From positions 19,618-83,617 of the forward strand of contig CADASN010000014.1 of the NCBI GenBank assembly GCA_902790635.1: a stretch of DNA of 64,000 bases, written 5' to 3'. Both the position numbers and the translations under genes were made by a program. The notes beneath the pieces are model-generated. The model did no database searches and had not been told where the DNA came from. It saw only the letters and a program-made list of their open reading frames with translations. Of the stretch, positions 19,308-22,690 are shown in pieces (position 1 is the first letter of the stretch; every line of letters starts with the position of its first letter). The DNA is from an uncultured Bacteroidia bacterium (GTDB lineage Bacteria > Bacteroidota > Bacteroidia > Bacteroidales > UBA932).

Positions 19308-19362
19308 ATATTTAAGTATTAAATTATAGGTAAAATTATTATTAACAAAGCTTCGGATTTTG

Positions 19363-19397
19363 ACAGACGGCCTGCGCGGGCCGTCTGTTAACTTTTT
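19363..19397 (+). terminator. terminator after the secreted Met-rich protein gene
   Basis: ACAGACGGCC pairs perfectly with GGCCGTCTGT around a 6-base loop and is followed by TAACTTTTT. It lies 55 bases after the stop, before the partner-switching operon. Confidence 0.8.
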
Positions 19398-19443: not shown

Positions 19444-19854
19444 ATGAAAAAAACTCTCGTCCTGTCCAATGATATCCGGCAGATTCCGGAACTCGCCGCC
19501 TTCGTGGAAGCGTTGGCGGAAGAGTTGTCGCTGAATCCTGCCGAGGCGATGAGCCTCAACCTGGCCTTGGAGGAAGCCGTGACGAATGTGATGATGTATG
19601 CCTATCCTGCCGGCGTGACCGGGCAGGTGGAGTTGGAAGTGGATGCGCTGCCGGGCCGGCTGGTCTTCGAACTCAGCGACTCCGGCGTGCCGTTCGACCC
19701 TACGGCGGCTCCGGATGCCGACATCAGCCTGGGCGTCGAGGAGCGTCCGATCGGCGGATTGGGAATCTTCCTGGTCCGGCAGATTATGGATTCCGTCGAG
19801 TACGCCCGGCGGGGCGGGAAAAATATCCTGACTTTGACGAAAAAACTAACTTAG
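19444..19854 (+). CDS. RsbW-like anti-sigma serine kinase (HATPase fold)
   Basis: A 136-residue GHKL ATPase of the RsbW/SpoIIAB type, expected to phosphorylate the STAS protein encoded 4 bases downstream. The N box LALEEAVTNVMMYAYPAG (Asn48), the G1 box LSDSGVPFDP (Asp79) and the G2 box GGLGIFLVRQIMD (residues 104 on) are all present, so ATP binding should be intact. No sigma factor or PP2C phosphatase gene is nearby. Instead the operon continues into an ABC transporter, so that transporter may be what the switch controls. Confidence 0.9.
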   Translation: MKKTLVLSNDIRQIPELAAFVEALAEELSLNPAEAMSLNLALEEAVTNVMMYAYPAGVTGQVELEVDALPGRLVFELSDSGVPFDPTAAPDADISLGVEERPIGGLGIFLVRQIMDSVEYARRGGKNILTLTKKLT

Positions 19855-19858
19855 ATAG

Positions 19859-20167
19859 ATGGAAATAGAAATTACCCAACAAGAGAATCAGATGACCGCA
19901 CGCCTGGTCGGGCGTCTGGACACTCCGGCTTCCCAGGAAGCCGCCGTCAAGATCCAGCCTTTGCTGGACCATGCCGACAAGACGATCGTAATGGATTGTA
20001 CGGAACTCAGCTACATCAGCAGCTCCGGCTTGCGTCTTTTCCTGACGCTTCGCAAGGCCTGCGCCGCGAAGGGCGGCAAGGTGGTGCTCCATGCCATCAA
20101 CAACGATATCCGCCAGGTCTTCACGATGACCGGCCTGCTGAGCCTGTTCGTCGTTGAGGATGCGTAG
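19859..20167 (+). CDS. STAS-domain anti-sigma factor antagonist
   Basis: 102 residues covering one STAS domain, like RsbV/SpoIIAA. The conserved loop DCTELSYISSSGLRLFL carries the expected phosphoserine (Ser55 by alignment with the DSSG of SpoIIAA). In known systems the unphosphorylated form binds the kinase and frees its partner. Its last 8 bases overlap the start of the transporter gene, which implies translational coupling. Confidence 0.9.
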   Translation: MEIEITQQENQMTARLVGRLDTPASQEAAVKIQPLLDHADKTIVMDCTELSYISSSGLRLFLTLRKACAAKGGKVVLHAINNDIRQVFTMTGLLSLFVVEDA

Positions 20168-21605
20168 GTTCCTTCTCGCGCTGTCGCTCCTCCTGACATT
20201 GGGCGGATGCATCCGGCAGGATGCGCCCCGCTCCCTGGAGGATCTTCAGGATGCCCGGATCGGAGTCCTGACAGGCTTGGCACATCGCCATGACCTGCAG
20301 GATGCGTTTCCGGGTTCATCTTTTATGAATTTTGAGGATCTGCCGCTGATGTGCATGGCGCTTCAGGGGCGGAGGATCGATGCGCTGGTGTGCCTCGAAC
20401 CGGGGCTGGATGAGTTGCTGGAAGGCAATCCCGGCTTCAGGGAATTACCGGGCCTTTCGATCCGGGATTCGGTCTGCGTGGCATTCCGCCTGGACGATCC
20501 GGATCTGGCCGGGGCGTTTGATGATTTCCTGGAAGAGATCCGGGCCGACGGCCGGATGGCGGAGATGGAGGCGAACTGGTTCGGCCCGGACGCTGCCCGG
20601 TCCTTCTACCACGCCCATGGCGGGGCGGGAGAGCCCCTGCGGGTGGGCATCGAGGTCGGACAGTCCGGCCTGACCGTGATGGAGGACGAGGAGGAGACGG
20701 GGTTCGAACCGGAGCTGATGCGCCGCTTCGCCGATCACCTCGGACGCCCGGTCCGGTTCATCGAGATGACCGGGACCGGCATGGTTCCCGCGCTGGCCTC
20801 GGGCCGCGTGGACGCCCTGGTGGACGCCATCACCCCGACCCGCGAACGCTCGCAGAGTTTCCGTTTCTCGCGGCCGTATTATTCCTGCGACCTGCATGTG
20901 GTCGTCCTGGATCCGGATTATGTCCCCGAGATCCGCCGCCAGACGCTCGGTGAGGTCCTCCGGACGAACCTGGTGGACGAAGGCCGCTACAAACTGATTC
21001 TCAACGGCCTCTGGATCACGCTGCTGATCATGTTCTGCTCGGTGCTCCTGGGCAGCATCCTGGGAGCGCTGCTCTGCTGGATGCTGCTGTGCAAGTCGAA
21101 GGCCCTGAAGAAGTTTGCCCATGCTTATTGCGAACTGATCGAGGGCATCCCGATCGTGGTGCTTCTCCTTTTCATGTTCTACGTCGTATTTGCCGCGACG
21201 CCGGTGACGGCGGTCGTGGTCGCGATCATCACGTATTCGCTGCATTTCGCGGCCGGCGCCTGCGAGAGCTTCCACAACGGGATCGAGAGTGTCCCGCACG
21301 GGCAGTTCGAGGGCGGCTTGGCGCTGGGCCTGACGGAGTTCGGGACCTATCGCTATGTCGTGCTGCCGCAGGCCATGCGCCAGATCCTGACCTTGTTCAA
21401 GGGCAAGAGCGTGGCGTTGATTGAGAATACTGCCATCGTCGGATTCATCGCCATCCAGGACCTGACCAAGGTGACGGACATCATCCGTACCCAGACCTAC
21501 AATTCGCTGATCCCCCTGGTCGTGGTGGGTCTGCTGTATTTCCTGCTGGCCCGGCTGATCGGATGGGCCATTGACAAACTGGGCGATTATCTCCTGAAGA
21601 AATGA
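20160..21605 (+). CDS. fused substrate-binding/permease protein of an amino-acid-type ABC transporter
   Basis: A 481-residue fusion. The lipoprotein-type signal ends LGGC (Cys17). Residues ~25-145 read like the second half of a family 3 solute-binding protein (IGVLTGLAHRHDLQDAF, GRRIDALVCLEPGLDELL, final ANWFG). Residues ~158-255 read like the first half (LRVGIEVGQSG, GFEPELMRRFADHLGRPVRF, ITPTRERSQSFRFSRPYYS). From ~280 come the membrane segments of a polar amino acid permease with an EAA-like loop (ESVPHGQFEGGLALGLTEF). I chose the ATG at 20160; a TTG at 20154 is possible. The ATPase gene overlaps by 4 bases. Confidence 0.88.
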   Translation: MRRFLLALSLLLTLGGCIRQDAPRSLEDLQDARIGVLTGLAHRHDLQDAFPGSSFMNFEDLPLMCMALQGRRIDALVCLEPGLDELLEGNPGFRELPGLSIRDSVCVAFRLDDPDLAGAFDDFLEEIRADGRMAEMEANWFGPDAARSFYHAHGGAGEPLRVGIEVGQSGLTVMEDEEETGFEPELMRRFADHLGRPVRFIEMTGTGMVPALASGRVDALVDAITPTRERSQSFRFSRPYYSCDLHVVVLDPDYVPEIRRQTLGEVLRTNLVDEGRYKLILNGLWITLLIMFCSVLLGSILGALLCWMLLCKSKALKKFAHAYCELIEGIPIVVLLLFMFYVVFAATPVTAVVVAIITYSLHFAAGACESFHNGIESVPHGQFEGGLALGLTEFGTYRYVVLPQAMRQILTLFKGKSVALIENTAIVGFIAIQDLTKVTDIIRTQTYNSLIPLVVVGLLYFLLARLIGWAIDKLGDYLLKK

Positions 21606-22690
21606 AAACGATCCTCAAAATAGAATCGCTCTATAAGCAGTTCGGTGACGTCCACGTTCTGAACGGCATCGACTGTGAGATCCGGGAGGGCGAGATCGTC
21701 TCCGTGATCGGACCGTCGGGCTGTGGCAAGAGTACCTTCATCCGCTGCCTGAACGGCCTGGAGCGTCCGACTTCCGGGCGTGTGCTGGTGGACGGCGTGG
21801 ATATCTTTTCGCCGGAGGCGGATCTGCCCGCCATCCGGAGCAAGGTGGGGATGGTCTTCCAGGAGATCAACATCTTCGGCCATCTGAGCGTCCTGGAGAA
21901 CGTGATGCTCGGCCTGCTCAAGATCCGCAAAATGCCCCGGAAGGAAGCGAACGCCGAAGCGGTGCGCCTGCTGCGGCTGGTCGGTCTGGGCGAGAAACTG
22001 GACGCGATGCCGGATGCGCTTTCCGGCGGGCAGAAGCAGCGTGTGGGTATCGCCCGCTGCCTGGCGATGCAGCCGGAGGTGATCCTGTTCGACGAGGCGA
22101 CCTCCTCGCTGGATCCCAGGATGAAGACCGAGGTGCTCAGTGTGATCCGCGAACTGGCCAAACAGGGCCATACGATGCTGGTCGTGACCCATGAACTCAA
22201 GTTCGCGCGCGACGTCAGCACGCGCGTGCTCTTCATGCACGAAGGGCGGATCGTGGAGGAAGGCTCTCCGGAGCAGGTCTTCGACCATCCGCAGAAGAGT
22301 CTGACGCGTGCGTTTGTCGACAACCTGCGCAGCCTGGTCTTCCAGATCGATTCGCAGGACTACGACCTCTACCAGCTCAATGCGGAGATCGAGTGGTTCT
22401 GCCAGCGCAATACGCTCGGCCGCCGCTATGTCTCACTGGAGCTGATTGTCGAGGAGATGCTCACCAAGATGATGCCGTTCACCGGTCCGATCCATATCTG
22501 CATCCACTGCAAGGAAATGTCGCAGGAAGTCTCGATTGAGATGGAGCAGGAGCAGTTCTCCGGCCAGATCGTCGGACGGGAAGGTACGGACGAGATCTCG
22601 CTGATGATCCTCCAGGGCCTCTGTGAGTCCATCGAGGAGGAGCAGCGCGGTACGACGCGCGTCGTCCGGATGGAAGCCCGGTCGGAATAG
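21602..22690 (+). CDS. ABC transporter ATPase with C-terminal RsbW-like (degenerate HATPase) domain
   Basis: Residues 1-240 form a standard amino-acid-type ABC ATPase: Walker A GPSGCGKS (37-44), Q loop at Gln87, LSGGQ (140-144), Walker B ILFDEA (161-166), switch His in THEL. Residues ~250-362 are an extension not usual in this family. By eye it follows the upstream RsbW-like kinase: YVSLELIVEEMLTKMM against MSLNLALEEAVTNVMM, and LMILQGLCESIEEEQRGTTR against IFLVRQIMDSVEYARRGGKN. The N-box Asn is Lys289 and the glycine boxes are missing, so it should not bind ATP. It could be a docking site for the STAS protein. A hairpin follows the gene. Confidence 0.88.
   Translation: MKTILKIESLYKQFGDVHVLNGIDCEIREGEIVSVIGPSGCGKSTFIRCLNGLERPTSGRVLVDGVDIFSPEADLPAIRSKVGMVFQEINIFGHLSVLENVMLGLLKIRKMPRKEANAEAVRLLRLVGLGEKLDAMPDALSGGQKQRVGIARCLAMQPEVILFDEATSSLDPRMKTEVLSVIRELAKQGHTMLVVTHELKFARDVSTRVLFMHEGRIVEEGSPEQVFDHPQKSLTRAFVDNLRSLVFQIDSQDYDLYQLNAEIEWFCQRNTLGRRYVSLELIVEEMLTKMMPFTGPIHICIHCKEMSQEVSIEMEQEQFSGQIVGREGTDEISLMILQGLCESIEEEQRGTTRVVRMEARSE

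Follow-up and report, generated by a model that had tools for sequence, protein, structure and literature searches.

A candidate partner-switching module joined to an ABC importer through a degenerate RsbW-like domain in the Bacteroidota

Partner switching is known mainly as a means of turning genes on and off. In a 64-kb window, the whole stretch of DNA that we analysed from the genome of an uncultured Bacteroidia bacterium, positions 19444-22690 of the forward (+) strand hold a tight four-gene unit that encodes an RsbW-type serine kinase, a STAS antagonist, a fusion of substrate-binding protein (SBP) and permease, and an ATP-binding cassette (ABC) ATPase with an additional C-terminal domain (CTD). 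Like RsbU/RsbV/RsbW and SpoIIE/SpoIIAA/SpoIIAB, the system in the complete form seen in relatives comprises a SpoIIE-type PP2C phosphatase, a STAS protein with a phosphosite serine and a GHKL kinase whose N and G boxes are intact, but it differs from them in that no sigma factor was found alongside and in that a dead RsbW-like domain is fused to the ABC ATPase.

Partner switching itself, outputs of it other than sigma factors and a STAS protein on an ABC ATPase are each already known, the second from SiaABCD and the third from MlaB. SiaABCD of Pseudomonas is a partner switch with a non-transcriptional output, a diguanylate cyclase, whereas the output here would be an importer. The likeness to SiaABCD lies in the Cache-type PP2C, and the match of one such phosphatase (locus L091 of family f136, in another class of the same phylum) to the SiaA model is weak (E 6.3e-26; 91 bits, cut-off 700). 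C-terminal regulatory domains are known from other ABC ATPases, among them MetN, with NIL/ACT, MalK and ModC. The CTD resembles these in following the nucleotide-binding domain and in possibly regulating transport, and differs from them in being RsbW-like and in having no Pfam match to NIL, ACT or TOBE.

The nearest precedent is MlaFEDB, in which the STAS protein MlaB binds the ABC ATPase MlaF and is needed for function, with phosphoregulation at Thr52 having been proposed (PMC7367683). In the cited parts of that report, MlaB binds MlaF itself and an extension of ~25 aa, and no kinase, phosphatase or RsbW-like domain is involved; the STAS protein of the window stays below the cut-off of the NCBIfam MlaB model, with 20.8 bits where 90 are required. 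Whether ABC transport is regulated through phosphorylation of a STAS protein is a question that MlaB leaves unanswered (PMC7367683), and because relatives of the window's locus encode kinase and phosphatase in the same operon, that question could be addressed with purified parts.

In the open-licence literature searched, no report was found in which an ABC ATPase carries an RsbW-like domain or an importer is subject to partner switching, in keeping with the statement of an initial annotation of this DNA that no described transporter is known to be controlled in this way. We propose, with confidence that stands about midway, that the four genes belong to a partner-switching module whose target is the ABC importer, the STAS protein docking on the CTD to change transport. 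If true, this would provide a direct, testable link from STAS serine phosphorylation to nutrient uptake, offer a possible target for RsbW, STAS and SpoIIE genes in bacteria without an evident sigma target, and explain the fusion of a dead kinase domain to an ABC ATPase.

The ATPase C-terminal domain and RsbW kinases

The initial annotation had paired two segments of the CTD by eye with the kinase of the same operon and had taken the domain to derive from an RsbW-like kinase. By itself, the window's CTD has no significant Pfam match (the best, at 0.15, is unrelated) and no NCBIfam match, BLASTP against the operon kinase returns E 0.17, and a profile of ten window-type CTDs reaches E 0.1 against kinases. 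The significance of the likeness arises only through relatives of this CTD, which were gathered from the genus and order, from genome contigs (nine window-type loci, L038-L046) and from the phylum. A profile of 20 CTDs (A2) aligned to a profile of 11 kinases (A4) with an hhalign E value of 2.2e-9 and a score of 57.2, in register over 102 columns; the best of 100 column-shuffled kinase alignments scored 18.8 and the reversed alignment 11.9. The score was 63.0 when the six window-type rows were removed and 44.8 when the nine most divergent CTDs were added (A5). Merging the CTD and kinase alignments leaves both segment pairs noticed by eye exactly in register.

Pfam HATPase_c_2 matches 8 of the 20 profile members (best 5.1e-7) and the CTD of L091 (1.7e-4); the anticipated profile likeness to this family is thus found for the CTD family, but is undetectable for the window's CTD alone. 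When genomes were scanned with the CTD profile, true kinases were also among its matches (E 4.5e-7 in G232, 2.4e-6 in G195 and 9.6e-6 in G409). The most divergent CTDs (A3) match the other CTDs at E 2.2e-18 and, taken alone, gave no match to kinases. Against PDB sequences the CTD profile yielded 19 weak matches (E 0.81 or worse), among them glucocorticoid receptor, chalcone synthase, a viral chemokine inhibitor and MetN, and neither RsbW nor SpoIIAB, both of which the kinase profile does recover. That the resemblance to RsbW arose by chance would agree with the missing kinase matches of the window's CTD and of the A3 CTDs when each is used alone, yet the profile controls, the HATPase_c_2 matches in relatives and the kinases recovered by the CTD profile already disfavour this explanation, which we hold to be very improbable.

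Neither the N-box Asn nor the G1 Asp occurs in any of the 79 distinct CTDs (one row is gapped at each site). Together with the profile controls, this confirms the likeness to the kinase and the loss of the catalytic boxes that had been noticed by eye, and supports the view of the CTD as a catalytically dead domain of RsbW/HATPase_c_2 descent, a relative of RsbW and not a kinase. In the cited parts of the RsbW report, RsbW pairs via helix 1 and strand 1 and is contacted by RsbV at Arg23, Asp42, Lys44/Ser48, Glu49 and Tyr118, with Glu49 facing the phosphosite Ser56 (PMC7340262). These contact residues were placed on the CTD by hand through a HMMER alignment. The equivalent of Glu49 is present in all 26 CTDs with a linked STAS or kinase gene, in 37 of 45 unlinked ones and in 7 of 8 from genomes without the module, counts that are not independent since the rows are related to one another. 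The most constant CTD residues are a Phe-Cys pair in the helix-1 region (Phe in 79/79, Cys in 78/79). We read this as a domain that may still pair and that, while phosphorylating nothing, could still turn a Glu toward the STAS protein.

The catalytic residues of the kinase are invariant in all 11 kinases of the alignment, and the kinases of linked loci carry the Asn and Asp in 26/26 cases and the G1 Gly in 25/26; by its sequence, the operon's kinase is of the active GHKL serine-kinase type that a partner-switching module employs. In the STAS protein, alignment to solved STAS proteins identifies Ser55 as the equivalent of SpoIIAA Ser58 and RsbV Ser56, and all 39 rows, among which six genes appear twice, have Ser at this site. 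Ser56 of the window's protein was considered as the phosphosite and rejected on the same alignment, f136 proteins having Ala at that position.

Partial matches to the CTD profile were also seen in other open frames, of 613 aa (G112:C210:1766-1975), 605 aa (G216:C60:2560-2769) and 296 aa (G136:C18:77048-77173).

Switch genes beside the transporter

The CTD ATPase recurs in the Bacteroidales and, within the phylum, in a second class, and switch genes are joined to the CTD transporter in seven different arrangements across the two classes. Whether any switch gene is linked changes a minimum of 12 times on a tree of nucleotide-binding domains. Within f136, the ATPase is adjoined by one or more switch genes at 16 of 41 loci and by none at 25. 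Complete operons, found at eight of these loci in seven genomes, run on one strand in the order Cache-SpoIIE, SBP/permease gene(s), ATPase-CTD, STAS and kinase, with no other recurrent gene inside them. Five further loci carry STAS and kinase genes without a SpoIIE gene in view (some lie at contig ends), two carry SpoIIE and STAS, and one SpoIIE only. A locus of f135 (L096) has the order STAS-SpoIIE-SBP-permease-ATPase. Among the Bacteroidales, a Cache-SpoIIE-kinase fusion stands directly before the permease (L013) or directly after the ATPase (L035), a divergent Cache-SpoIIE gene adjoins a kinase-STAS-permease-ATPase unit (L045), and the CTD transporter shares its strand with a second ABC cassette and with SpoIIE, kinase and STAS genes (L070).

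The initial annotation had reported that neither a sigma factor nor a PP2C gene lies near the unit. No sigma factor was found among nine neighbouring proteins (16.0-27.4 kb), the remaining genome not having been searched for sigma factors, and purpose-built models, that for SpoIIE from a single sequence, found no SpoIIE gene, second kinase or second STAS gene in the window. A PP2C phosphatase nevertheless appears to be part of the system: many relatives encode one within the operon, and the window's genome has candidates elsewhere. That genome, 83% complete, has two SpoIIE phosphatases, both on other contigs and putatively paired with this switch; one of them has a Cache domain and is fused to a HATPase_c_2 kinase. 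Its sole STAS match is the STAS gene of this operon. Among the 31 genomes with CTD ATPases that were searched, 29 have a STAS match and all 31 a SpoIIE match.

In the order, 17 of 295 genomes have a full CTD ATPase. An RsbW-type kinase (E <= 1e-10) is present in all 17, against 118 of the 278 others (Fisher 9.5e-7, a value that ignores kinship); three of the eleven query kinases come from genomes of this sample. A stricter cut (E <= 9e-29; 17/17 versus 43/278) was chosen with the data already in view and is given no weight here. Counted over the 16 order genomes other than that of the window, a kinase lies within 10 kb of the CTD ATPase in three, against 0.18 expected (P 8e-4, a rough figure from genome sizes).

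Among the eight ATPases of the window's clade, every one of the 28 pairs shows higher conservation in the CTD than in the nucleotide-binding domain (85 versus 74%), as compared with 3 of 2199 other pairs, which indicates strong constraint on the CTD in that clade. Two broader patterns were tried and set aside. Greater constraint on linked than on unlinked CTDs was seen overall (6/2000 permutations), but is carried by the window's clade alone. STAS and CTD as the two most conserved parts holds for L038 and L042 (respective values of 92 and 92% for STAS, 93 and 87% for the CTD, 78 and 79% for the kinase, 85 and 80% for the permease, and 88 and 80% for the nucleotide-binding domain) and fails for L045 and L046, where the CTD stands at 55% in both and the nucleotide-binding domain at 63 and 64%.

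Several minor features of these loci were also recorded. One genome carries the six-part f136 operon twice, ~206 kb apart and with identical ATPases (L092 and L093, G414:C1). A single open frame seems to encode both permease and CTD ATPase at L017:12927-15650, L018:799-2799 and L034:6698-9691; close to that of L017, on the opposite strand, there is another CTD transporter. The second cassette of L070 (4787-8810; ABC_sub_bind, BPD_transp_2 and ABC_tran), which belongs to one run of genes with the CTD transporter, is accompanied by a 424-aa protein with an N-terminal STAS domain; STAS matches in open frames of 416-432 aa occur in 10 of the 31 genomes searched.

A proposed switch acting on the importer

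In the proposed mechanism, the importer acts with paired ATPases, so that two CTDs would probably pair as well, via strand 1 and helix 1, the pairing face of RsbW. A SpoIIE-type phosphatase with an extracytoplasmic Cache sensor would act as the sensing component and dephosphorylate Ser55 of the STAS protein, which in its unphosphorylated form would dock on the paired CTDs and alter transport; the live kinase would rephosphorylate it and so end the signal. By analogy with the classical systems, docking more likely switches transport on than off. Extended to the relatives, this would amount to an ABC importer family, spanning two classes, that is gated post-translationally by serine partner switching on the transporter itself and not at transcription, a generalization to which we assign slightly less than an even chance.

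Several observations weigh against this proposal. The ATP-lid region between the G boxes is shortened in the CTD in the merged alignment. No switch gene lies within 7.5 kb of 51 of the 79 distinct CTD ATPases (some at contig ends), and co-occurrence of the CTD with kinase or STAS genes is not strict in f136 and its neighbours. Among 29 genomes of f135, f136 and f153, 25 of them f136 genomes whose visible loci are all unlinked, 8 are without a kinase and 9 without a STAS match; the eight that are without both keep the CTD, several of them being 97-100% complete, so that the CTD has a use, or persistence, without the switch. A kinase adjoins the transporter and a STAS gene does not at L039-L041, and likewise at L022 of the Bacteroidales, where the kinase precedes the permease. 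The excess conservation of linked CTDs is gone without the window's clade (385/2000 permutations) and within f136 (1231/2000). The conserved gene order in relatives on which the initial annotation had staked its reading is borne out in part: of nine cases of the window type five keep the order, and it fails at the unlinked ATPases and in the eight genomes without the module.

The same observations bear on an explanation in which the CTD, though descended from an RsbW fold, serves the ATPase simply for pairing or for regulation by a small molecule, as in MetN or MalK, and the switch genes regulate something else. It would account for the eight genomes that keep the CTD without a detectable kinase or STAS gene, for the 51 unlinked ATPases and for the lack of excess CTD constraint in linked f136 rows. 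We consider it improbable in view of the linkage, which is repeated in seven arrangements and exceeds chance.

The window-type loci bear on the main rival, in which the flow is reversed: the CTD would pair with or recruit the live kinase, transport would tune the kinase, and the STAS protein would have another target. All nine of these loci have the permease and ATPase, seven have an adjacent kinase and only four an adjacent STAS gene, a bias toward the kinase that such a flow would explain. The Phe-Cys pair, as the most constant feature of the CTD, lies in the equivalent of helix 1, part of the pairing face of RsbW, and at L062 and L063 the STAS gene of the respective genome is in another cluster with a phosphatase-kinase fusion. 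The pairing face is, however, also kept in genomes without a kinase, which fits CTD-CTD pairing equally well. The f136 operons, moreover, encode a phosphatase whose own sensor domain already supplies a sensor, and they share no recurrent gene for another target. We judge the reversed flow unlikely.

Where neither kinase nor STAS is adjacent (L043 and L044), the contig itself carries a Cache-SpoIIE-kinase fusion and a STAS gene, at distances of ~19 and 25 kb. The genomes of L039 and L040 each have a single STAS match, situated in a separate cluster that also encodes a Cache-SpoIIE-kinase fusion, and in that of L041 no STAS match was found. Clusters at L062:5795-11348 and L063:4589-9630 comprise a STAS gene followed by genes for a 362-aa protein that by eye resembles a RelA/SpoT-type synthetase, a 466-aa protein and a Cache-SpoIIE-kinase fusion, with an additional 218-aa protein at L062; this cluster is possibly another output of the same STAS protein.

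Features of the four-gene unit

On recheck, the coordinates and reading frames of the four genes were correct, and Pfam and NCBIfam matches agree with the family first given to each of them (Table 1).

Table 1. Positions of the genes and other features of the unit within the window
Feature	Position	Strand	Evidence
RsbW-type Ser kinase, 136 aa	19444..19854	+	HATPase_c_2 8.2e-29; N-box Asn48, G1 Asp79/Gly81 and G2 box intact
STAS antagonist, 102 aa	19859..20167	+	STAS 4e-17, ant_ant_sig 2.4e-20
Lipoprotein-like SBP_bac_3/BPD_transp_1 permease fusion, 481 aa	20160..21605	+	SBP_bac_3 1.3e-24, BPD_transp_1 8.6e-18
ABC ATPase, 362 aa: GlnQ-like nucleotide-binding domain and CTD	21602..22690	+	ABC_tran 1.5e-35
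CTD: degenerate RsbW-like domain, ATPase residues 241-362, ~120 aa	22322..22687	+	
Ser55 codon of STAS protein	20021..20023	+	alignment to solved STAS proteins
Terminator-like hairpin upstream of unit	19360..19391	+	4 such sites in region vs 2.5 expected by chance

The SBP-permease gene overlaps the STAS gene by 8 bases, and the permease-fusion and ATPase genes overlap through ATGA. All three subunit families of polar amino acid importers (SBP_bac_3, BPD_transp_1 and ABC_tran) are found in the unit, and the ATPase matches the GlnQ model at 4.2e-83, below the model cut-off; the permease fusion and ATPase are therefore predicted to form an importer of the polar amino acid type. The binding part of the permease fusion (residues 19-251, window 20214-20912) looks lobe-swapped, as if circularly permuted before the membrane part: residues 19-141 resemble the C-terminal half of the SBP model (ArtJ 114-241) and residues 159-250 its N-terminal part (25-117/250).

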